DNA of 64,000 nucleotides from an uncultured Pseudomonadota bacterium. GTDB lineage: Bacteria; Myxococcota_A; UBA796; GCA-2862545. The translations under genes and the position numbers were made by a program. The notes beneath the pieces were generated by a model. That model made no database searches. It was not told the origin of the DNA and was given only the letters and a program-made list of their open reading frames with translations. This document shows, in pieces, positions 21,955 through 39,188 of this stretch. Every line of letters begins with the position of its first letter. Positions within the stretch are counted from its first letter, which is position 1. The DNA lies in the NCBI GenBank assembly GCA_913061235.1, contig CAJXTB010000004.1, forward strand, positions 310,001 to 374,000, given 5' to 3'.

Positions 21955-22865
21955 CATCTGCGAGTGTGCTTCCCAGTGAGCGAGTCGTGCCGTGGCTGCG
22001 GGCTCTCTCGGCGGCTGTTCAGGCCATTGCACCGCACAACGACTTTGTCCCCATGGACGCAGCTGTCGCCCACATACAGTGCCTATCTCCATCATTATCG
22101 GCAGACGTGTTGGCCCCTGCACAGGTCGACCCAGACTCGGGAATGCCAAGCCTGGCGTGGATGACTCGGGCGACGGCTGAACAGGCGCTTGGGCGGCACG
22201 CAGAGCCGGTCTCGGACACTGTTCGCCGCTTGGACCCAGCGTTGGCGGCAAGAATGGATGCGCGGTGTCGTCTGGCGACGCACTTGGCGACCCATGAGCT
22301 GCTGCCGGTGCTGCGATTGGTCGGTCGTGTTCGGCGTGTCGACCGGCAAACCAGCGCATTCTTGGTGTTCGACCACATTGATCCAGCGGGGCGTTGGGTG
22401 CGAACGCGGGTTGAGCTGAGCGCACCCGCCGGCACGCGTGACCTGGGGCTTGTTCAGGTCGACGCGGCGGCACGAATCGTTGTGCAACCTGGACTTCATG
22501 ACGTCTTTGCGCGGCACATCCTAACCTCTCTCCCGTCGCTGCTCGTCGCGCTTCAGGGGCTGACCACAGCGCGGGTCTGCCGGGTGTCGCGGGCTAGCCT
22601 TGGACCGTTTTGGTACCCCGGTGGTCCGCAAGCCGTCGTGATGCCACCGGCGGTCGTAAAGACCTTGGTGTTGCACGCCCTACACGAAGCGATGGGCGAT
22701 GATGTCCCTCGTACGGTCACGAACGACCCCCTAGCGCCTGTGAGCATCACGCCGGCGGTCGGGCTTCACCGGACTCGTCTACGTCGTCTGGCGGTCTTCC
22801 GTCCGGGTGTTGACGCGGTTCGCGAATGGCTCGGCAATGACGTGCTTATCCACCCATTCGGCTGA
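21951..22865 (+). CDS. Conserved-looking protein of unknown function
   Basis: A 304-aa protein whose ATG overlaps the coiled-coil gene stop. No signal peptide and no known family is recognised. Visible features are an Ala/Arg/Leu-rich N-terminus with LSAAVQAIAPHNDFVPMDAAVAHI, a beta-rich central segment (LVFDHIDPAGRWVRTRVELSAPAG), and a C-terminal stretch LVLHALHEAMGDDVPRTVTNDPL. The ends of this gene and the GHKL-like gene on the opposite strand overlap by 20 bases. Proximity makes a functional tie with that ATPase pair worth testing, but this is only positional. Confidence 0.65.
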   Translation: MTSASVLPSERVVPWLRALSAAVQAIAPHNDFVPMDAAVAHIQCLSPSLSADVLAPAQVDPDSGMPSLAWMTRATAEQALGRHAEPVSDTVRRLDPALAARMDARCRLATHLATHELLPVLRLVGRVRRVDRQTSAFLVFDHIDPAGRWVRTRVELSAPAGTRDLGLVQVDAAARIVVQPGLHDVFARHILTSLPSLLVALQGLTTARVCRVSRASLGPFWYPGGPQAVVMPPAVVKTLVLHALHEAMGDDVPRTVTNDPLAPVSITPAVGLHRTRLRRLAVFRPGVDAVREWLGNDVLIHPFG

Positions 22866-25740
22866 GTAGAGACCGGCTCAGGACCTCGGAGGCAGAAACA
22901 AAGTCGGTGTTGGTGGAATGACACAGGCGCTGCGCCAGGGACCACAAGACCAACAGGTCGTCGCCGGGATATTTCAGGCGTTCCGCGTCAGACTTGCCGA
23001 GATGGATGACCACCGATGCCCCAGGAGAGACCTGGGAGTTCATGTAGTTGCTGGCCAACACCGAACAGGGCGCGATGCCTCGTAGGAGGTATTGTAGGTC
23101 TGTTTGATTCAGCTGTTTCGGCGCCAGTGCCCGGTCGCGCCACCGCTGTAGGTACTGGGTCGCGTCATCATCGTCGGGGTGTTCAGCAAGGTGGTCTTCG
23201 AGGTCTGCGTACAGGGCCCGAATCTCGATGCCGAGGTCGGCGGCCCGTTCGTCTGCCTGCTCGACAACAAGGTCGAGCCAACCACGGCAGGGCAGTGCCT
23301 CTTCCGTGCCACGAAGCGTGAATGTTTCCCCTTGCCAGACCCCCAGAATCCCAAGGGTAGCGTCGTAGGGACGTGGCAGGTCAATCCAGCCGTCGCCCCA
23401 GTCGCGGTGGACCGGTCGAGTCACCACACAATCGCCAGGGTCTTCACTCCACGTGTTGTGGTTGTCATCGAACCGCAGGGGAATGTCGCGTCCGATGAAC
23501 AAGTACTTCGCTTCATCCAGCGTCAGAGCGGCTGTCCAGTGGTCGGTGTGGGTCAGCCCGTAGGCAGTAGCAATGCGCAGTCGTTCATCGTGGATGACGT
23601 CCTGCGCGGGTCGTGTTCGTGTGCCAATGGTCAGCGGGAGCTTGTCCGCCTGCTCCTGGGACGCACACACGACGCGCCCAATGCTCCGGTGGAGGTCTAC
23701 GTCGGCTTCGGGCCACGTGTTGTGACGTTCGAGGTCGATCAGGCGACGGCAGAGCAGGGCGATTCCTGCGAAGGTCGGACGCGCCTGATGGCCGTCCCGG
23801 ACTAGGTGAGTGACGAATGGGCCTTGTGATTCCTGGACAATGTAGCCGTCGATGACCACATCCGGCACCACGCAAGCGGTCACAATGAGCAGGTTTGTGA
23901 CGGTATCTCGTGTCCAGTCGTCGTCGGGTTCCAGCCAGATCCAGTGGCCGTCGGTGGTCCCCACTGCAAACAGGCGGCGCTGATCTCGGGACGGGTGCTG
24001 AAGGTGGCCCCAGCCTAAGCGACGCTCCAGCGGTGCGAGTCTGTCCAGCTCTTCGGTACTCGCGACCGGAAGAGCCGTGGTCGTTCCTTGCACAGCGGCG
24101 AGTGCGCTGGCTGAGATTCCGGCAGCGAGTGGGAGTGCGTGAAGGTGCTCTGCATGCGGCTGAAGAGCGGGCGGTAGCCACAGGTCGAGCTGTGTCCCTC
24201 GGTCAGTGGCGACGAGCTGGGGCCGACTGCACTGAAGAACCGCGGCGCGTTTGAGGGCCGTCAGGTCGGCGTCGTGCTGATCGTCGAACAGCTTGCCCAG
24301 TGCCTGAATTGTGAGCGTTGTACAGAGCGATTCTGGGGGCTGTTCGTCTGCCTGTACAAAGGCCCACACGCCGGGCAGAGAGAGCGAGAGTCTTGTTAGC
24401 GAGCGGGACATGCCGTCGACAATGTGCAGCAGGGGCGTGCCGCTTCCCGGTGCGGGCTGTGGCGCTTGTCCGTCCACGTACACCCGAATCCACAGGGTTG
24501 CGGTGTCGTGGGTGATGCGTGCGCTGTAGAAGGCGGGATGAGTGTTGCGCTGCATTTCAGCGACGAACCGGGCATCTTCTGCACTCTGTAGGCGAGCGAT
24601 GACACGGTCGGGCAGCCTGTCAGAGAGCAACGCCCCGGTTTGTTCGTCGAGAAGCAATACAGGCCAGGGAAACCGCTGTGGGTCCAGTGCGCTGTGGGTC
24701 TCGATGACGTTGCCGGGGCTGACCAGGAACAACGGATGGCTCGGCTCCAGCATCTGTAGGTCAGCGACCGACACATCGGGGCGTACGCTGACCTGCCGCA
24801 TGGGCTCCACCAGAACGGCGCCGGTGCTGGAGGACGGGGCCTCGGGGGCCCGAAAGTCTGCGGTTGAGACGGAGGCGTGCTCACTTCGCAGCAGCGGAAC
24901 AATCTGGGGCTGTGCAATGCTGAGCATGTTGGCCCAGGCGTCGTCTTGGACAATGTCGACGCCGTCGGCCGACTTGCGTAGGCGGTCGTCGCACAAGATA
25001 CCGCCAGTGGACTCACCCAGCTCCGGGATGCGCAGGGTTGCAATCGTCACCCCGCCTACGACCACTTGCACCCGTGGCAAGACGCCAGGGCGGACGATGC
25101 CGAGGACACCGCGCACGCCTTGTTCGTCGAAGGAGACAGAACGCTCGAGGCCCGGTGCCCACAAGGCTGTGTTTGGGGAGGTGCCCAGGGTGGGACGACC
25201 GTCGACTAGAATGGGGACCGGTAGATGGGAGCAGTGCTGCCAGATCAGGGTGGCTTCGTCGGGGACGGCGGGAGTCTTCCAGGGGCGCCAGCCCGGCTTG
25301 GCGAACGTGGCTCGGATGTAGGTGCCGACGATGGGGGCGCATGGGGCAACTGCGATGTCGCCGTTTCGGCGAATCGTGGCCCGAACCGACGCCTCAACCG
25401 TCCCATCCCCGGACTCAATGACCAGACTGCGCGGCTTGCGAAAGAGGAGCGCGTTCACGCCCAAGGCGAGCTGTTGTAGCGAGCGCGTCTCGGCCCGAGT
25501 CTGTGCGACGAACAGGTAGTCGAACAGTTGTTCCAGCTCGGTGTGTGGGACGGGTGGCGCGCCTACCCAGGTCACGAGAGACTCTGTCGGTGTGGCGTCT
25601 ACACTGATCCACCGGGCACCACGAAAGACCGCCGCTTGAATCAACTCCAACACATATTGGTCGGGATGACGCATGGCGTACTCGCGCATCTTGGCGATGG
25701 CCTGGTCGCGAGCAATCGTGAAGCGTTGCCGTTCAGCCAC
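22846..25740 (-). CDS. Large GHKL/Hsp90-like protein, probably inactive ATPase
   Basis: A 964-aa protein following the active GHKL gene. Its first 130 residues resemble a Hsp90-type ATP-binding fold: FTIARDQAIAKMREYAMRHPDQ, YVLELIQAAVFRGARWI (N-box) and LQQLALGVNALLF (G2-box region). The N-box Asn is Ala and the DxGxG box is not visible (VTWVGAPPVP), so ATP hydrolysis is unlikely. The rest is unrecognised, with beta-rich repeats and a helical C-terminus. The start is taken as GTG 25740, which overlaps the previous gene by eight bases; upstream ATG 25863 would overlap it by 131 bases. It appears to be a paired paralogue or client-binding partner of the upstream ATPase. Confidence 0.75.
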   Translation of the reverse strand: MAERQRFTIARDQAIAKMREYAMRHPDQYVLELIQAAVFRGARWISVDATPTESLVTWVGAPPVPHTELEQLFDYLFVAQTRAETRSLQQLALGVNALLFRKPRSLVIESGDGTVEASVRATIRRNGDIAVAPCAPIVGTYIRATFAKPGWRPWKTPAVPDEATLIWQHCSHLPVPILVDGRPTLGTSPNTALWAPGLERSVSFDEQGVRGVLGIVRPGVLPRVQVVVGGVTIATLRIPELGESTGGILCDDRLRKSADGVDIVQDDAWANMLSIAQPQIVPLLRSEHASVSTADFRAPEAPSSSTGAVLVEPMRQVSVRPDVSVADLQMLEPSHPLFLVSPGNVIETHSALDPQRFPWPVLLLDEQTGALLSDRLPDRVIARLQSAEDARFVAEMQRNTHPAFYSARITHDTATLWIRVYVDGQAPQPAPGSGTPLLHIVDGMSRSLTRLSLSLPGVWAFVQADEQPPESLCTTLTIQALGKLFDDQHDADLTALKRAAVLQCSRPQLVATDRGTQLDLWLPPALQPHAEHLHALPLAAGISASALAAVQGTTTALPVASTEELDRLAPLERRLGWGHLQHPSRDQRRLFAVGTTDGHWIWLEPDDDWTRDTVTNLLIVTACVVPDVVIDGYIVQESQGPFVTHLVRDGHQARPTFAGIALLCRRLIDLERHNTWPEADVDLHRSIGRVVCASQEQADKLPLTIGTRTRPAQDVIHDERLRIATAYGLTHTDHWTAALTLDEAKYLFIGRDIPLRFDDNHNTWSEDPGDCVVTRPVHRDWGDGWIDLPRPYDATLGILGVWQGETFTLRGTEEALPCRGWLDLVVEQADERAADLGIEIRALYADLEDHLAEHPDDDDATQYLQRWRDRALAPKQLNQTDLQYLLRGIAPCSVLASNYMNSQVSPGASVVIHLGKSDAERLKYPGDDLLVLWSLAQRLCHSTNTDFVSASEVLSRSLLSRMGG

Positions 25741-27382
25741 CTGCGACCGCCTCGCACAGCCGGGCTTGCTCTTCTTGGCTAGCGCCGCGCGTTGTGAGAA
25801 CAAGCTGCAGAATGGCGAGCACTGCGGCAGTCGGAGCAACGCGGGCCAACAGTCGGTGCGCACGGATGGTGGGGTGTCCGTGGTTGATGAGAACCTGGTC
25901 GTCTATCGGCGTATCGAGGTTTCGCAGGACCACTCCCTGCTCGCTGGGCAGGGGAATGACCGCAGGTTCATGTCGCGCAGCCGCAATGCCACCGAAACGA
26001 CCAAAATGAAGGTGTCGAAAGCCGTGGTTCAGAGCAATGCGCTGAAGCTCGGTCACAAGCGTCCGGTCCGTCAGGCTTAGATCGGTGTCTGCAATGCGCT
26101 GTGGCAGGAAGAACCGCTCCGTGGCCGTGCGTAGTGTGCGAAGCCTCGGCAGAAATGCGAGTGCTCGCTTGCGCGGAAAAGCTGCAAATACCGAGCGAAT
26201 CGCTGGTGTGTCCGGCAATACGAAGCGCCCTTGTGCGGTCAGTGCATGGACCACCGGGTGTTCTGCCTGGCCAATGAGCAGGACTCCAAGGTCATCTTCC
26301 TGGGCTTCCACCTCGGCAAGTGTGCGTACTGTGCCGGTGGTGTCGCGGAACAGGGCCTGGTCGTCGGGAAGGCTACGCGAACCCTCTGGCGCGAGATCTG
26401 TGGCGAGCCACCGAAGCAATGAGTCGTCGTCTTTTCCCGAGAGGGCTGCTGCTTGCAAGGCGCTCAGAAGCTGTTGCCGCAGAACTTTCCGAGCGTCCAG
26501 GGTCAGCTGCATGGCGCGGTGCCAGACGTCGTCCTGAATGACGTTGTCTCGCGTGAGCGTGTGGTCGAGTCCCGGTCCAGCAACCTTGATATTGAGGTGA
26601 CTGACGCTGCCTGCGTACACTCCGAGAACCGCGACGTCTTCCGTCGAGACCAGGGTCAGGCCGTGGCTGTAGAACCCAAAGCGTGGTGAGTCGGTGGCAC
26701 CCACGAACACGGTGAGGCCGTCTCGCTTCAGTGTGGCGGTGACGGGATCAGTGAGGCCCAGCGGTTGGCTGACGGTCTTGAGCATCTGAATCGGCTCTTC
26801 GAACGCGGCGAAGGGGTCGTCATTCGTAGTGGCTATGGCGGGAGTTGAGCCATCCTCAATGAGTACAACCGGACGGTCACTGTGCTCGCACCAGTAGGTC
26901 AATACGTAGGCAGCTTGCCGCTGGGTCCGGCGGGCTGTGTCGATGTCCATGCGCTTGTGCAGGGTGACCACAGTGCCGAGAATTGGCGGGTGCAAGGGGG
27001 TGACCGCAAAAGTGCGCTCGGCATCAAAGTGAATGTCCCACGACTCCCCAATGCGTCCGGTCCGTACCCAGACGTCATCGGGTCTCAGGGAGAACACCGA
27101 CGCGAACCCAATCCCAAAGCGGCCAATCTGTGTCAGGTCACCTTGTTTTTCTGACGCGAACAGTCGGGTCAGTTGCTGATCGACAATCTCACGGGTCATG
27201 CCGTGGCCAAAGTCGGTCACCGACAGCACCAACACACCCTCCGCAGGGTCGTAGTCCGTGCGCACTTCAATGCGCGGAGACCCCGCATCAAGAGAGTTTT
27301 GGACCAGCTCGCGTAGGAAATCGAGCGGGCGTGCGAACTGGTCGACCAAGTTGTCGAGGGCTTGCTCGGCAAGAGTTCGCAC
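25733..27382 (-). CDS. Hsp90-like GHKL ATPase
   Basis: A 549-aa protein with a canonical Hsp90/HtpG-type ATP-binding domain: N-box LRELVQNSLDAG (Asn29), DFGHGM (Asp57), and the G2 box GRFGIGFASVFSL at about 87-99. After that domain the sequence diverges from HtpG; no M-domain or C-terminal dimerisation motif of classical Hsp90 is apparent, though VAGPGLDHTLTRDNVIQDD (about 277-295) resembles the catalytic-loop region of GHKL proteins. GTG 27382 starts two bases after the tyrA stop. ATP-driven conformational cycling is expected; the client is unknown. Confidence 0.85.
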   Translation of the reverse strand: MRTLAEQALDNLVDQFARPLDFLRELVQNSLDAGSPRIEVRTDYDPAEGVLVLSVTDFGHGMTREIVDQQLTRLFASEKQGDLTQIGRFGIGFASVFSLRPDDVWVRTGRIGESWDIHFDAERTFAVTPLHPPILGTVVTLHKRMDIDTARRTQRQAAYVLTYWCEHSDRPVVLIEDGSTPAIATTNDDPFAAFEEPIQMLKTVSQPLGLTDPVTATLKRDGLTVFVGATDSPRFGFYSHGLTLVSTEDVAVLGVYAGSVSHLNIKVAGPGLDHTLTRDNVIQDDVWHRAMQLTLDARKVLRQQLLSALQAAALSGKDDDSLLRWLATDLAPEGSRSLPDDQALFRDTTGTVRTLAEVEAQEDDLGVLLIGQAEHPVVHALTAQGRFVLPDTPAIRSVFAAFPRKRALAFLPRLRTLRTATERFFLPQRIADTDLSLTDRTLVTELQRIALNHGFRHLHFGRFGGIAAARHEPAVIPLPSEQGVVLRNLDTPIDDQVLINHGHPTIRAHRLLARVAPTAAVLAILQLVLTTRGASQEEQARLCEAVAGG

Positions 27383-27384
27383 GT

Positions 27385-28494
27385 CTACGGCTCGCGAATC
27401 AAGGTTTCAATGATTCGGTCGGACTCCTGCTGCGCCTGTTCGGCAAAGTCACTGAACCAGGTCGCGGTTTCTTTAAACAAGGCCAAGAACCCATCGCGGT
27501 CGCGTCCTGCAATGAGGGTATGCAGCTCCGCGGTCGCCTCGCTCAGCAGGTGCCGAACGCGGTCACCATCTGGATTGTCGAACAGAATGGACGCGTACAG
27601 TTCTGGGTCCTGCGCAAAGAGTCGGCCAATGACGGACATCTCCAAGCGGTAGATCGGACTGGTGTAGCGCAAGCTCTCGACTATCGAAACCCCAGTTCTC
27701 GCAAGGGTTATTCCGGTGGCGATAGTGCGAAAGTGGGTGATGACCTGAACCAGCGCCATCATGCTGTCGTGGTCTTCGGGTGTGGCCTCGACCAGCTCTG
27801 CGCCCATGGCGGCCAGCTGGTTGAGCATCCACCCTGTGCGCGGGCCGGAGTTCACACGGCACACCACGACTTTCTGGCGCCGCAGTGAGGAGGTTGTTGG
27901 ACCGAACATGGGGTGCAAGCCGAGTGTTTCGCAGCCTGCTCCTGCGTATCCGGCACACACGTTCGCTTTGAGTGAGTTGATGTCGCACAGCAGCGCGTCT
28001 GGTCGCATGTGGGGGATGACGTCATGAAGTACGGGCTCCATCGCGCGCATAGACACCGATAGGAGCACAATATCGGACGCTGCCACAAGGGCGGCACGGT
28101 CGCGAGGGTCGTCCGTGTCCGTGATGTCTACCGTGGCGCCTCTAGAGGTGAGACAGCGTGCAAACCACTGGCCCATGGCGCCCTTTCCACCTACGATGAG
28201 CACGGATGGGCCGTCATCGGGTCTGTGCTGAACGGTCTCTTGAGCGGTGTGGCCGGCCTCCATGACCGCCTGAATGACTGCGGCGCCTGTAGCAGCAGGC
28301 AAGCCAAGGTCTACGCTTCGCTTTCGCGCCCGGTCCAAGACCACCTCTTCGCGACTGCGGTCGAAGGTGCCTGTGCGCGTGGCGGCCTTAAATGCACCGA
28401 TACGGCGAGTGATTGCGAGTCGCTCAGCGGCTGCGACGAGCAGGGCTTCGTCGGCGGCATCGAGCTCTGCGCGTAGCTCTTGCAGCGAGGTCAT
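27385..28494 (-). CDS. tyrA: Chorismate mutase/prephenate dehydrogenase (T-protein)
   Basis: A 369-aa bifunctional enzyme of tyrosine biosynthesis, similar in length to E. coli TyrA (373 aa). Residues 1-85 form the AroQ chorismate mutase (ELRAELDAADEALLVAAAERLAITRRIG). The Rossmann domain starts at VLIVGGKGAMGQWFARCL, followed by LLSVSMRAMEPVL, DINSLKA and the catalytic-region motif LGLHPMFGP. It converts chorismate to prephenate and then to 4-hydroxyphenylpyruvate. Overlaps the ferritin-like gene upstream by four bases and is followed within two bases by the GHKL gene, so all belong to one operon. Confidence 0.95.
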   Translation of the reverse strand: MTSLQELRAELDAADEALLVAAAERLAITRRIGAFKAATRTGTFDRSREEVVLDRARKRSVDLGLPAATGAAVIQAVMEAGHTAQETVQHRPDDGPSVLIVGGKGAMGQWFARCLTSRGATVDITDTDDPRDRAALVAASDIVLLSVSMRAMEPVLHDVIPHMRPDALLCDINSLKANVCAGYAGAGCETLGLHPMFGPTTSSLRRQKVVVCRVNSGPRTGWMLNQLAAMGAELVEATPEDHDSMMALVQVITHFRTIATGITLARTGVSIVESLRYTSPIYRLEMSVIGRLFAQDPELYASILFDNPDGDRVRHLLSEATAELHTLIAGRDRDGFLALFKETATWFSDFAEQAQQESDRIIETLIREP

Positions 28495-29174
28495 GCGGTC
28501 CCTTGGAGGTTGATGCCTCGTTCTGCGAAGCGTACGCGAATGTCTTGGGCGACCGTCTGGTCATGCACTTCGGCATAGGTCGACAGTGGAATGAGACCCA
28601 TTGCCAGCTCATCAGCAGTCAGGGTGTTGATGTCCGGCATTGTTGCGTAGGCCTTCCGAAATCCTTCGAGCCAGCCCGGTAGTTGATGGATGATGCGCTC
28701 ACGAACGCCGGCTTCATCGACCTGTAGCAAGGCGTCTAGGGCCGACCAACCGAAGGCTCGGTGAACGGCTTCGTCTCGTAGAATACGCGTCAGCGCCGGC
28801 TGTACAGCGGGATGGGTTGCTGTACGTCGCATGGCGTCGAACAACGGGACCGCGAAGGTCTCACCCAGACAGAAATTGCGCACCACGTTGTCCACGAGTG
28901 CCGCTAACGGGCCTTCAGGACTCGGAAGGGCCAGCGCATTCAGCTCCAGGGGAATCGGCTCATCGGCTCCGCCCAAAGCGGTCAGGCAATCGTGGGAAAG
29001 GCGTGCGTGGTCCAGCTCATCGCCGACGATTCGTAGCGCTGTACGGTGCAGCTCATCCGGCAGACCGACCTGAATCGCACGGTGTAGTGCTTGTGCCGCA
29101 TACGTCGCAGAGGTGTACTCGGCGGCGACTCGGTTGCTCCACTCCGCCAGCACGCGGCGGCTCGCACTACTCAC
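28491..29174 (-). CDS. Ferritin-like diiron protein
   Basis: A 227-aa helical-bundle protein. Two ExxH pairs are visible, DELDHARLSH and RDEAVHRAFGW, with a further Glu in GETFAVPLF and in RVAAEYTSA near the start, giving the ligand pattern of a ferritin-like diiron site. The start is taken as GTG 29174, which overlaps the upstream gene's stop by eight bases; a TTG at 29192 is possible. Similar proteins act as oxidases, ferroxidases or oxygenases; the substrate cannot be named here. Position between a lipoprotein and tyrA does not clarify it. Confidence 0.78.
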   Translation of the reverse strand: MSSASRRVLAEWSNRVAAEYTSATYAAQALHRAIQVGLPDELHRTALRIVGDELDHARLSHDCLTALGGADEPIPLELNALALPSPEGPLAALVDNVVRNFCLGETFAVPLFDAMRRTATHPAVQPALTRILRDEAVHRAFGWSALDALLQVDEAGVRERIIHQLPGWLEGFRKAYATMPDINTLTADELAMGLIPLSTYAEVHDQTVAQDIRVRFAERGINLQGTA

Positions 29175-29625
29175 CGGTGGTGCCGTCCTCAACGTCTGGC
29201 GCCGGAGCCGATTTGTAGGCGTCTAACAAAGGTTGTGCACGGTCGGGGCATGCGACTTGGGTTCCGCAGGGCTCGGTCGCACAGTCTTCGCGGACGCGGT
29301 CACCAATGCCATCGGGGCCGCCGGCGCGGAACGGCGAGACGAAGTCCTTGTAGCAGTCACCCTCGGGCGTCACGTACAAGAAGGGAATGGGTGGATTGGT
29401 CGCACCTTCGGGGTGGCTACTCGACACATCATCCCATGCCGGCAGGGTGGCTTGCTCTGGCGCTGGGGGGTTCTCCGTTGGCTCGAGAATCGGCGGTGGC
29501 GGATTGCCGGCAGGCTCAATGATGGGTGGCGGAGGATTTGTCGTAGGCTCAACTTTGCCCTTGCATGCTGAAAGGGTCAGGGCTGAGCCCGCGGCGAGGA
29601 CGGCGATGATTGGAGTGGTCTTCAT
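29167..29625 (-). CDS. Proline-rich lipoprotein
   Basis: A 152-aa product with a lipoprotein signal (TPIIAVLAAGSALTLSAC; lipobox LSA/C). The mature protein starts with a triplicated Pro-rich repeat of about 11 residues (NPPPPIIEPAG, NPPPPILEPTE, NPPAPEQ), followed by a small region with five Cys residues (DCYKDF, EDCATEPCGTQVACPD). ATG 29625 is chosen because the signal peptide starts there. The repeat probably spans the wall as a flexible linker. Function unknown. Confidence 0.75.
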   Translation of the reverse strand: MKTTPIIAVLAAGSALTLSACKGKVEPTTNPPPPIIEPAGNPPPPILEPTENPPAPEQATLPAWDDVSSSHPEGATNPPIPFLYVTPEGDCYKDFVSPFRAGGPDGIGDRVREDCATEPCGTQVACPDRAQPLLDAYKSAPAPDVEDGTTGE

Positions 29626-34973: not shown

Positions 34974-36107
34974 CTACAGAAGTTCGCCGGAGCGGTCGTT
35001 TAGCGGGAACCGGAACTGGGTCCAGATTCGCACCGTGTCGTTGTTCACCGAGCGGCCCTGACGTTCGAGACGCAGGATGTAGCCGGCGCCCAGATCGATT
35101 CCCGGCGCGATGTCGTGGAAGTTTGCGCCAACATGAACAATCGACACATCGCCGTTGTCTTTTAGTTGGGTAGCGTCATCCAAGCTGGAGTACCGCGCTG
35201 CGACTTCCAAGCCGCCTTCGAGCAACGGGAAGGCAGCGGAGAGTTGGCTGGTGAAGCCAATGGCGGTGGTGTCGGAGATGACATCGGGCGCCGCAATCAG
35301 GTCATCCTTTGGAGACGTGGCGTTGCGGGTAATGCCGACGGTCGCCGTGATGGGGCCAACACGGCCAAGGGCATCTGCGTTGAGTCCCAGGGTGGTGGTC
35401 GAGATGTCGTCGTTGTACAGCGCGGAGACTGCGACGCCGTAGGCGGCTTCACCGTCTGGCGAGTAGGTTCGGTAGGTGTCACCGCTGGCGAGTTCGAGAC
35501 GAGCCGCACCCATCACGCCGTTGTTGTTGTCACCCAGAATATCTCCGTTGCCGTTGTACACGCCGGCACGACCGCGAAAGATGCCTTGGGTGGTGTCGAA
35601 CAGCACGCCCACGTCACGAATCGGGGACGTCCAGATCGTTCCCACGCCCCGTTCTTGGAATGTCAGGTCCAGAGACGACATCAGTGTTTCACGGGCGAAC
35701 GGCACCGGAACGATACCGGCCGACAGCGTTGTATTGCGAGCCTCACCGAAGCCGTAGCCGCCGTAGGCGTCGACAATCTGAATGAGGTCTTCTGACGACG
35801 ACAGTCCGTCGTACGGCGCCCCCGTTCCCATGGAGACGCGCCAGAAGGTACCGCCCATGTTGCCGGTGAGACCAATGCGCGCGCGCCGAATGGAGAAGCC
35901 AATGTCCGCTTCGGGGTCGCCGTAGCCAGCGGGGTCGGCCTGGGGGTCTTCGTCCATATCGAATGCCGTTGCCCAGACCTGGACGCGAGCGGTGGGCTGC
36001 AAGACCAGGTTGTTCTCGAGCACGTTCAGGACGATTTGACCATTGGGGCGGTCTTGGGCTTGGGCTGGGGCCACAAGCAATGTCAGGAGTGTGACGAGTG
36101 CAGTCAT
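34974..36107 (-). CDS. Outer-membrane porin-like protein
   Basis: A 377-aa product with a cleavable signal (ALVTLLTLLVAPAQAQ) and a beta-barrel-like sequence of alternating hydrophobic strands ending in RIWTQFRFPL. The segment DPEADIGFSIRRARIGLTGNMGGTFWRVSMGTG is characteristic of OprO/OprP phosphate-selective porins and related families. Substrate specificity cannot be read. The gene is followed directly by the parvulin lipoprotein, and the divergent PHP lipoprotein begins 39 bases upstream. Confidence 0.78.
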   Translation of the reverse strand: MTALVTLLTLLVAPAQAQDRPNGQIVLNVLENNLVLQPTARVQVWATAFDMDEDPQADPAGYGDPEADIGFSIRRARIGLTGNMGGTFWRVSMGTGAPYDGLSSSEDLIQIVDAYGGYGFGEARNTTLSAGIVPVPFARETLMSSLDLTFQERGVGTIWTSPIRDVGVLFDTTQGIFRGRAGVYNGNGDILGDNNNGVMGAARLELASGDTYRTYSPDGEAAYGVAVSALYNDDISTTTLGLNADALGRVGPITATVGITRNATSPKDDLIAAPDVISDTTAIGFTSQLSAAFPLLEGGLEVAARYSSLDDATQLKDNGDVSIVHVGANFHDIAPGIDLGAGYILRLERQGRSVNNDTVRIWTQFRFPLNDRSGELL

Positions 36108-36146
36108 GATGCAGATCCTTCGCGTGTTGGACGCTATGATAGCCTC

Positions 36147-39100
36147 ATGCAGACCCTACGTCCGACACGCCGTCCATTCCCGACCTTTTTCGGTCTCTTC
36201 GCCATCAGCCTTGTGTTGATCCCAAGCTGTGCTGAGCAAGAACCCTACGCTCGCGCCTATGAGATCACACGGCTGGACCAGACCATTGGGGGGCCAAAGT
36301 CTTTGGCGCGTCCCGCGGACCCGTCCACCGATCGTCCCGGTGACTTGATGTTGGAGAACGACCGGATTCGCGTGTCCATCTTGGGCGCCCATCCAAGTAT
36401 GGGGCCATCGGTGTTCGGTGGATCTCTGGCAGATGCCGATATCCAGTGGAACGACCCACGGTTCAGCGGTGGAAAGGGCAAAGATCAGCTGGCTGAAGTC
36501 TTTGCCAACGCCAACATGAACGTGCTGGCCCCGCTGGAAGACGAAGACGTCAGCATCCTCTCCGATGGGTCGGATGGGGGACCGGCGGTCATCCGTGTTG
36601 TGTCGCTAGCCGAGCCCTTCCTCACCCTGTTGAACCCACTGTGGGGCCTGGTCAATCAGCCAGAGTTTCACCTGATTACCGACTATTCGCTGTCGCCGGG
36701 TGAGTCTTGGGTGCGCATGGACAGCACCGTGGTCCTTGGATGGGATGGAGAGAGTGAGCTTCCTGCAGCCGAGCCCATGCTGCCGATTGCCCCTGGCTTC
36801 AACCTCATCGAGGCGGCGGTTGAGGACGGCATCGTTGGTGGAGACTTCTACCTTCAGGGCGGCTCGGTCAATGTGTTCGGCCCGGGCATCGGCTTTGACG
36901 AGAGCGGATTCGTTGCCGAACAACGCGAACAGGAACGCAATCTGTTCTTGGACCCCGCAGGCTTTGAGTTTCTGGCTGGTGTGGGAGATGGCGTCAGCTA
37001 CGGCATTGCCGGCGCAGTTGGAGACGTCTACGTTCCGCTGTTTACGGCCTCTCAGACCGCTACCTTCTACGAGTTTTCGCCAACGCGCTCGGGACAGAAG
37101 AGCCTCAGCTACAGTCGCTTCTTCTTTGTGGGAACCGGTGATGTCGGCAGCATTCTCGACGGTATCATTCAGGCCAAGGCCATTCCCCATGGCAGCGTTC
37201 ACGGCGTGGTTTTGGAAGAGGGAACCAGCTCACCGCGTAGCGGGTACGACGTCTTCGCCTACCACGCTGGAGACGACGCTCCGTACAGCCAGTGGCGGAC
37301 GGATGTGGACCCCCGCGACGACGTCGCAGACGGTTCATTCGGCGGTAGCTTGCCGGTTGGCGACTGGGAGCTGATGGTCCATCAACAGGGCCGTCCAGAC
37401 AGCGAGCGAATGGCCGTCACCGTGACGGAAGGCAGTGAGCAAGACGTCGTGCTCGTCTCACCACGCCCGGGCCTGTTTTCGTTCACGATTCGCGATGAGC
37501 GAGGGCTGCCAGTACCCGCCAAGGTCACCCTGTTCTCTGTCGACGATGACGTCAGCCGCGACCCGACCCTTGGCGACGCCTTTGTTGGCGGAAACCCGGA
37601 AGCGGTGCTGTTCCCCATGTACGGCAGTGGCGAAGCTGAGCTGCCAGACGGCGAGTACTACGCAATCGCCAGTCGGGGCTTGGAGTACGAGATCGACATC
37701 AGCGAGCCGTTCATCATTGATGCAACCCGTCGTACCCACCTCGACTTCAACGTCATTCGGTCTGTACAAACCGACGGATGGGTGAGCGCTGACCTCCACG
37801 TTCACGCAGTGCGCTCTCACGACAGCGGAGTGGCCCTCGCAGACCGTGTACGGACCATGGTGTGTGAAGGCGTGGAGTTCTTCGCGGCCACGGACCATGA
37901 CTGGATCACTGACTACGCGCCTACAATCGAGATGTTGGAGATGGGCGAGTGGGTACAGAGTGCTCCAGGAAATGAAGTGACGACCATTGAGACTGGTCAC
38001 TTCCTGGGCTTCCCGTTGGCAGAGGACTTCTTAGGCGACGCCGGCGGTGCTGTGGACTGGACCGGACTGACCCCTGAAGAGATGATTGAACAGCTTCGCG
38101 AGATTGGCGAGGAAGCGGGCCTTGACCCCGTGGTGTTCATCGGACATCCGCGGGCCGGTATCTTAGGGTACTTCGACCAATATGGCCTGGATCCATACAG
38201 CGGAACCGTTGAGAATATTGTCGCGCGCCCGGGCATCTTGACCGCGTCCAATCCGCTCATCAGCTCCGATGAACTGTCCCTTGAGTTCGACGCTATCGAG
38301 CTGATGGGCACCAAAGACCTCATCTTCCTGCGCACACCGACCCAGCCCGAGCTGGACCAACACCGGACCGGTGGTGACCTTGAGATTATCAATGTGATGA
38401 CGCGGACGCTCGAGGAGCAGCAGGGCCTTCGAGACGGCGAGTTCCGGCTTGGCTACGGTATTGAAGGCCAGATTGATGATTGGTTTACGCTGCTCAACCT
38501 TGGGTACCGCTTCACTGCACTCGGCAACTCGGACACTCATGGCGTGACGAGCACCGAGGCAGGCTGTCCACGCAACTTCATCCTGTCCGAGTCCGATGAC
38601 CCGGCGTTCATTGACGACCAGGCCATGGCGGACGCTGTGAAGGACCACAGGGTCATTGCGTCGTACGGTCCGTACTTACAGATGTGGATCAACGGCGACA
38701 TGGTCGGCTCTGAAGTCGTCGATGAAGACGGCATGATCGACATCACTATCGAGGTTCAAGCTCCGACATGGATGGACGTTGATCGCGTCGAGCTGTACCA
38801 GAACGGAACGCTGATCGAGGTGCTACCCGCGGACATTCCAGACGAAGTCATTCGCCTGTCTACGACGTTGGAGCGGCCTATTGACCGCGACTCCTGGTAT
38901 GTCGCCATCGCCACCGGAGACGACTCCATGAGTCCGGTGTTCACACCCGTTGAGATCCCGTACATCCCGCTCGACGAGATTGTCATTGAGGCCTTGGGCG
39001 GTGTTGGCAGCGTGGCCACGTTCTTGTCCCCATCGATTCCCATGCCATTGACCTACCCAATTCATCCGTACGCTCTGACCAATCCCATCTGGGTAGATGT

Positions 39101-39188
39101 AGACGGGGACGGCTTTGACGCGCCGGGACTGCCCGAGTGGCTTTTGGCCCCGGAAGAGCCAGTTGTAGAAGAGCCCGAGGGCGAGTAG
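36147..39188 (+). CDS. Large PHP-domain metallohydrolase lipoprotein (CehA/McbA-like)
   Basis: A 1013-aa secreted lipoprotein: signal with FFGLFAISLVLIPSC (lipobox IPS/C). Residues 1-550 form beta-rich domains and include a carboxypeptidase-regulatory-like segment (VHGVVLEEGTSSPRSGYDVFAYHAGDD). A PHP/CehA-McbA type metallohydrolase domain begins at VSADLHVHAVRSHDSG, with FFAATDHDW, VFIGHPRAGILGYF and LGNSDTHGVTS; these His/Asp residues form the metal site. It may hydrolyse ester, carbamate or phosphoester bonds outside the cell; the substrate is unknown. ATG 36147 is preceded by a TATGAT -10-like sequence with no clear -35. Confidence 0.8.
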   Translation: MQTLRPTRRPFPTFFGLFAISLVLIPSCAEQEPYARAYEITRLDQTIGGPKSLARPADPSTDRPGDLMLENDRIRVSILGAHPSMGPSVFGGSLADADIQWNDPRFSGGKGKDQLAEVFANANMNVLAPLEDEDVSILSDGSDGGPAVIRVVSLAEPFLTLLNPLWGLVNQPEFHLITDYSLSPGESWVRMDSTVVLGWDGESELPAAEPMLPIAPGFNLIEAAVEDGIVGGDFYLQGGSVNVFGPGIGFDESGFVAEQREQERNLFLDPAGFEFLAGVGDGVSYGIAGAVGDVYVPLFTASQTATFYEFSPTRSGQKSLSYSRFFFVGTGDVGSILDGIIQAKAIPHGSVHGVVLEEGTSSPRSGYDVFAYHAGDDAPYSQWRTDVDPRDDVADGSFGGSLPVGDWELMVHQQGRPDSERMAVTVTEGSEQDVVLVSPRPGLFSFTIRDERGLPVPAKVTLFSVDDDVSRDPTLGDAFVGGNPEAVLFPMYGSGEAELPDGEYYAIASRGLEYEIDISEPFIIDATRRTHLDFNVIRSVQTDGWVSADLHVHAVRSHDSGVALADRVRTMVCEGVEFFAATDHDWITDYAPTIEMLEMGEWVQSAPGNEVTTIETGHFLGFPLAEDFLGDAGGAVDWTGLTPEEMIEQLREIGEEAGLDPVVFIGHPRAGILGYFDQYGLDPYSGTVENIVARPGILTASNPLISSDELSLEFDAIELMGTKDLIFLRTPTQPELDQHRTGGDLEIINVMTRTLEEQQGLRDGEFRLGYGIEGQIDDWFTLLNLGYRFTALGNSDTHGVTSTEAGCPRNFILSESDDPAFIDDQAMADAVKDHRVIASYGPYLQMWINGDMVGSEVVDEDGMIDITIEVQAPTWMDVDRVELYQNGTLIEVLPADIPDEVIRLSTTLERPIDRDSWYVAIATGDDSMSPVFTPVEIPYIPLDEIVIEALGGVGSVATFLSPSIPMPLTYPIHPYALTNPIWVDVDGDGFDAPGLPEWLLAPEEPVVEEPEGE

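Follow-up and report, generated by a model that had tools for sequence, protein, structure and literature searches.

A recurrent gene pair of Myxococcota encodes an Hsp90-like ATPase and a large partner in which the ATP site is lost

Analysis of a 64,000-nucleotide stretch of DNA (the window) revealed two overlapping genes encoding an Hsp90-like ATPase, P1, whose ATP site is intact, and a longer relative, P2, in which this site has been erased family-wide. The two genes are inherited together, and two further genes, X and Y, are associated with them. On the strength of sequence comparisons we propose, with moderate confidence, that P1 and P2 are the subunits of a heteromeric machine of the Hsp90 type, in which P1 would serve as the motor and P2 as a nucleotide-blind partner and client scaffold. 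The features on which this proposal is built are listed in Table 1.

Table 1. Positions in the window of the genes of the module and of the residues discussed in the text
Feature	Position	Strand	Remark
X, coiled-coil-like protein, 326 aa	20974..21954	+	no known family; recurrent neighbour of the pair
Y, 304 aa	21951..22865	+	no known family; recurrent neighbour of the pair
P2, catalytically dead Hsp90-like partner, 964 aa, GTG start	22846..25740	-	residues 5-297 with the Hsp90 N-terminal and middle fold
P2 Gly260	24961..24963	-	replaces middle-domain Arg
P2 Ala36	25633..25635	-	replaces Mg-binding Asn
P1 stop/P2 start overlap, 8 bases	25733..25740	-	GTGGCTGA
P1, active Hsp90-like GHKL ATPase, 549 aa, GTG start	25733..27382	-	complete ATP site
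P1 Arg278 in LDHTLTRDNV	26549..26551	-	candidate counterpart of the gamma-phosphate Arg in the Hsp90 middle domain
P1 glycine lid motif GRFGIGF, residues 87-93	27104..27124	-	
P1 N-box, codons E25 to N29	27296..27310	-	within FLRELVQNSLDAG

An intact and an erased ATP site

P1 has the features that define the GHKL family, namely the Bergerat fold, an N-box of the form E..N..D (E25, N29 and D32, in FLRELVQNSLDAG), a DxGxG motif (D57-F-G-H-G-M) and a GxxGxG lid (G87-R-F-G-I-G-F). An earlier note on this DNA had ascribed a complete GHKL site to the 549-residue protein; the motifs are as it described them, and the Pfam model HATPase_c_3 matches with 45.2 bits (cut-off 25). Across the Myxococcota, the E, Q, N and D of the N-box are invariant in 54 of 54 copies of P1, as are the D, G, G and M of DxGxGM across 54-55 copies, and the lid glycines and the final F are unchanged in 54 of 54. 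The position of Arg278, in the motif LxHTLTRDNV, is occupied by arginine in all 55 copies aligned there. On the basis of the structural match, together with an alignment that is weak and suboptimal, this residue is a candidate counterpart of the arginine in the NVSREILQ motif of HtpG. We infer from these sequences that P1 hydrolyses ATP.

The AlphaFold2 model of P1 (mean pLDDT 82) can be aligned over residues 13-549 with full-length Hsp90 (5fwk_B; Z 18.3, 432 residues aligned, rmsd 11.7). The rmsd is about 5 Å for the N-terminal and middle domains and about 11-12 Å for the whole chain, presumably because the domains are placed differently. The model suggests an Hsp90-like N-M-C architecture, which might include C-terminal dimerisation. 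Compared by profile alone, the middle and C-terminal part of P1 gave no significant match to Escherichia coli HtpG, and the resemblance in that part is a structural one. A regular htpG gene is present elsewhere in the source genome, so that P1 represents an additional system.

The picture for P2 is the reverse. Its N-box reads ELIQAAVF and, despite its fold, it has neither the Mg-binding Asn nor the DxGxG motif of active GHKL proteins. Both losses, which the earlier note had pointed out, are seen in the sequence and extend to the family: the position of the N-box Asn is Ala in 57 of 67 copies and Asn in none, DxGxG is found in 0 of 67, the lid glycines are mostly replaced (QLALGVN) and the middle-domain Arg is retained in only 16 of 64. 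It is established GHKL biochemistry that the Mg-binding Asn and the adenine-binding Asp are needed for normal ATP use; with both lost, such use by P2 is very unlikely. At the position of the catalytic base, Glu32 of P2 (25645-25647), glutamate is kept in 61 of 66 of these dead copies.

Searches with P2 against Pfam, NCBIfam and PADLOC gave no match up to E = 1, and a single match to PHROG was at chance level. The N-terminal fold that the earlier note had assigned to P2, in common with P1, draws no support from Pfam or NCBIfam but is supported by profile-profile alignment and by an AlphaFold model. P1 and P2 align with E values of 5e-4 in the window's subfamily, 1.5e-6 in a second, longer subfamily and 6.7e-5 when the N-terminal parts alone are compared. 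The family profiles are colinear from the N-box through the middle domain, and in a genome search a profile of P2 N-termini also picked up the neighbouring P1 genes, with E values down to 3e-11. The N-terminal and middle regions of P1 and P2 are shown by these comparisons to be of common ancestry. In the P2 model (mean pLDDT 80), residues 5-297 superimpose on TRAP1/Hsp90 with a Z of 17.9 (274 residues aligned, 4.2 Å), the match being restricted to the N-terminal domain and the beginning of the middle domain. Comparing the profile of P2 directly with HtpG gave no significant match, and the assignment of the fold therefore relies on the homology with P1 together with the model. Sequence comparison of P2, X and Y with solved structures gave nothing credible.

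P2 varies in length in the phylum from about 750 to more than 2,000 residues, and its best-conserved part across the length classes is the Hsp90-like region. We considered whether the C-terminal half might consist of further Hsp90 repeats or of a copy of the P1 C-terminus, and rejected both, hhalign giving no signal. In the second subfamily (loci L040, L050, L051, L053 and L054), P2 is very long, 1730-1860 residues where complete, and a LNASRS-like middle-domain motif with its Arg is kept while the ATP site is lost. A single in-frame stop interrupts P2 at two loci (at about 9233 in L037 and about 3392 in L042), reflecting either decay or an assembly error.

Distribution, co-inheritance and associated genes

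The eight-base overlap of the two genes recorded in the earlier note (GTGGCTGA) is present and suggests translational coupling. Among relatives, with gene starts as called in this analysis, the P1 stop and the P2 start overlap by 4 bases in 15 of 18 loci. In the class to which the window belongs, relatives of P2 with about 30-44% identity occur in 25 of 71 genomes, and a P1 relative lies directly upstream in nearly all of those with a readable flank. A profile search over the phylum found P2 in 88 of 379 Myxococcota genomes, with up to 7 copies each. Because few candidates were scored per genome, these counts are minimum values; the contigs of metagenome-assembled genomes are fragmentary. The gene order is P1-P2 at 48 of the 59 loci with matches, the other orders being P1-P2-P2, P1-P2-P2-P2 and P2-P2-P2-P1. 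The search for both genes side by side that the earlier note had advised thus finds them adjacent in dozens of Myxococcota genomes; the pair thereby passes the test that the note had set, of being conserved outside the source genome, and a pair of active and dead genes that recurs in this way is not a product of chance. Some loci carry a tandem array in which dead, diverged copies of P2, two or three in number, accompany one active P1 (L126, 2593-11535; L125, 7297-15533; L136, 6050-15314; and L124); in L126 P1 is the last gene of the operon instead of the first.

The trees of P1 and P2 are correlated with r = 0.89, the best of 1000 permutations reaching 0.15. Moreover, where one genome carries two pairs, these are about equally distant in P1 and in P2 (3.95 and 3.89, respectively, in genome G060; 1.80 and 1.71 in G020). 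Such joint divergence of paralogous pairs within a single genome is more than the species tree alone explains. We conclude from the tree correlation and the matched paralogue distances that the two genes have been duplicated and passed on together.

An all-against-all comparison of the genes neighbouring the pair identified the X and Y families, which were overlooked in the earlier note and which belong to the same module as P1 and P2. In the window, X and Y overlap by 4 bases, and the 3' end of Y overlaps that of P2, convergently, by 20 bases. X-Y is likewise convergent against P2 at L037 and L042, while at L129 the four genes X-Y-P1-P2 follow one another on one strand, nearly touching, an arrangement that L128 resembles with a short gap. 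Of the 379 genomes, 48 have X and 53 have Y; P2 is present in 45 and 49 of these, respectively, and X and Y occur together in 45. The association with P2 is strong by Fisher's test over the 379 genomes (5e-30 for X and 2e-32 for Y) and within the class (2e-13 and 4e-12), the genomes in both cases not being independent. Among the 71 genomes of the class, 22 have P2 and Y, 3 have P2 alone, 3 have Y alone and 43 have neither. Roughly half of the genomes with P2 lack X and Y, which are therefore not obligate. Judged from its sequence and from weak matches of tropomyosin and GCN4 type, X appears to be coiled-coil-like. Members of the two families gave only scattered, chance-level matches to Pfam, no relatives in the PDB and no match to PADLOC up to E = 1.

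The window neighbourhood consists of ordinary metabolic and envelope genes. tyrA (27385-28494) ends 2 bases before P1, and the location of the pair behind tyrA given in the earlier note holds for the window; no tyrA-like gene recurs at the other loci examined, so that this adjacency is incidental and a functional link was rejected. The other neighbours encode MoeA, a MobA-like protein, a LysM transglycosylase, pirin, bestrophin and an anthranilate-synthase-like enzyme. A 233-residue protein (28491-29192, - strand) whose gene overlaps the start of tyrA has weak ferritin-like matches only and is possibly ferritin-like, and a 1050-residue open reading frame (36036-39188, + strand) with no Pfam match at E 1e-5 adjoins a porin O/P-like gene. 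No island of defence or mobile genes was found in the window, and no mobile, defence, nucleic-acid or restriction-modification neighbours recur at the other loci examined. The idea of a mobile or plasmid-borne system was set aside, two P2 subfamilies having no plasmid match, and a pattern-based scan of viral contigs gave no match for the canonical P2 subfamily.

Relation to Hsp90 and sacsin

P1 shares with Hsp90, HtpG and TRAP1 a complete Bergerat ATP site, an invariant middle-domain Arg motif and, as its model suggests, the N-terminal, middle and C-terminal fold, and P2 shares with them the fold of the N-terminal and middle domains. P1 is nevertheless not an orthologue of HtpG, the canonical bacterial Hsp90: it scores 33 bits against a cut-off of 371 for the HtpG model, and it has no match to Pfam HSP90 (PF00183). 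The pair differs from these chaperones further in being encoded by two genes, one of which, P2, specifies a protein with no ATP site and with a long additional C-terminal part.

By profile, the ATPase domain of P1 seems to lie at the border of the sacsin-like family, the closest to it. The NCBIfam model NF047352 for the sacsin N-terminal ATP-binding-like domain matches with 46.5 bits for the protein and 50.4 bits in the genome search (cut-off 50), and Pfam SACS with 32.5 bits (cut-off 32.8). Sacsin, with several Hsp90-like modules and a giant scaffold, is also the nearest conceptual parallel to the pair. In sacsin, however, a single chain carries the repeats along with ubiquitin-like, DnaJ and HEPN domains (PMC3710099), and the middle-domain arginines are conserved (PMC9880540). 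The active and dead modules of the pair are instead encoded as two proteins, and P2 showed none of these accessory domains. The pair is not described in Pfam, NCBIfam or PADLOC, in keeping with the earlier note's view that this is not a known housekeeping system, and in the open-access literature that we searched we found no description of an active and a dead Hsp90-like protein encoded by separate, paired genes.

Proposed mechanism and alternatives

In the mechanism that we propose, P1 would bind and hydrolyse ATP and clamp in the manner of an Hsp90 protomer. P2 may have arisen by an ancient duplication of the N-terminal and middle domains, with nucleotide binding subsequently lost and a long C-terminal extension gained. 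It would most likely dock on P1 through the retained Hsp90-like face, whether to complete an asymmetric clamp as its silent half or to serve as a dedicated co-factor, while its C-terminal extension might present or bind the client. The putative coiled-coil protein X and Y would be accessory subunits in many lineages. Physical contact between P1 and P2, a function in chaperoning or remodelling and the identity of the client are matters that we infer. More tentative is the wider claim that the whole phylum Myxococcota possesses an obligate asymmetric heteromer of this type, in which an active Hsp90-type subunit would be joined by one or more nucleotide-blind giants of Hsp90 fold and by X and Y as further subunits.

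The classical Hsp90 cycle is not simply transferable to such a pair, because in yeast Hsp82 a partner that does not bind ATP (D79N) fails to support viability although a non-hydrolysing one (E33A) does so (PMC5018835), and because efficient cycling of TRAP1 needs hydrolysis in both protomers (PMC5550277). P2 would then have to work otherwise than in a plain Hsp90 dimer, or may be a co-factor or dedicated client of P1 homodimers. The models also argue against a heteromer in one respect, in that the usual C-terminal dimer contact would lie outside the part of P2 matched to Hsp90.

In an alternative that we hold to be unlikely, P1 would homodimerise as a specialised Hsp90 and only fold or assemble the giant P2, itself the working scaffold together with X and Y, with the Hsp90-like region of P2 a relic kept for docking. 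P1 could homodimerise, since its model matches a complete N-M-C Hsp90, C-terminal region included, and the strict order of P1 before P2, the overlapping genes and the frequent occurrence of one P1 with 2-3 copies of P2 (L124, L125, L126 and L136) are in line with a chaperone and its client. A relic, however, would not be expected to form the best-conserved region of P2, nor to keep the N-box Glu in 61 of 66 copies.

We regard as improbable a role in genetic conflict or anti-phage defence, with P1 as a GHKL switch comparable to TmtA of Tiamat, T4 RIIA or the paraMORCs and P2 as a large variable sensor or effector platform. Residues 1-101 of P1 do match the PADLOC profile of TmtA, which we take to be a protein of the Tiamat anti-phage system and which also has an N-terminal GHKL domain (E 1e-10, profile positions 57-152 of 1486), as well as PHROG 612 for RIIA (E 5e-5); the fold of P2 matches RIIA models, and the variable copy number, up to 7, and the patchy distribution would suit such a system. 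But what is common to these proteins is the generic GHKL/Hsp90 fold. The TmtA profiles extend over 1302-1655 positions, compared with 549 residues for P1, which matches in the ATPase part only; a match to the whole profile is absent, and P1 is not a member of Tiamat. The RIIA match is similarly limited to the generic ATPase part. None of the PADLOC 2.0 system models matches P2, X or Y up to E = 1, and these proteins are thus not members of the known anti-phage systems that it covers. We know of no dead partner of the P2 kind for T4 RIIA, the paraMORCs or the MutL-like GHKL proteins, which resemble the pair in joining a GHKL to an S5-like middle domain, through structural similarity to P2 and weak profile matches to P1. 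ParaMORCs, compared here by neighbourhood, are typically found in restriction-modification neighbourhoods (PMC8011034); at the loci examined, no neighbours of that kind recur beside the pair, nor is there a phage context. With ordinary genes around it in the window, no recurrent mobile or defence neighbour, and no match on plasmids or, for the canonical subfamily, on viral contigs, the part in defence or envelope stress that the earlier note had considered is not supported by any positive evidence.

Least probable is a nucleic-acid remodeller of the MORC or MutL type, in which GHKL-S5 subunits would close round DNA or RNA and P2 would supply the inactive half; although this architecture is common to MORC, MutL and GyrB, P2 matches MORC2 (Z 15.5), P1 matches GyrB (Z 16.1) and MutL-type dimers can be asymmetric, the Hsp90s rank first and cover more of P1, no nuclease or DNA-related Pfam domain was found in any P2 tested, and no nucleic-acid genes recur nearby.

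Overall, a chaperone with a specialised scaffold, the other possibility raised in the earlier note, appears to us the best reading of the pair, which looks like an undescribed ATP-driven protein machine and which brings with it, in P2, X and Y, protein families that have no Pfam entry. Whether both protomers of Hsp90 need ATP has long been asked, and engineered hemi-dead dimers have been used to address it. If the proposed heteromer is correct, the pair would be a natural hemi-active Hsp90, with a partner wholly unable to bind ATP. The active/dead arrangement itself appears to have been fixed by nature across an entire bacterial phylum, its paralogous pairs evolving in step, and is therefore directly testable.
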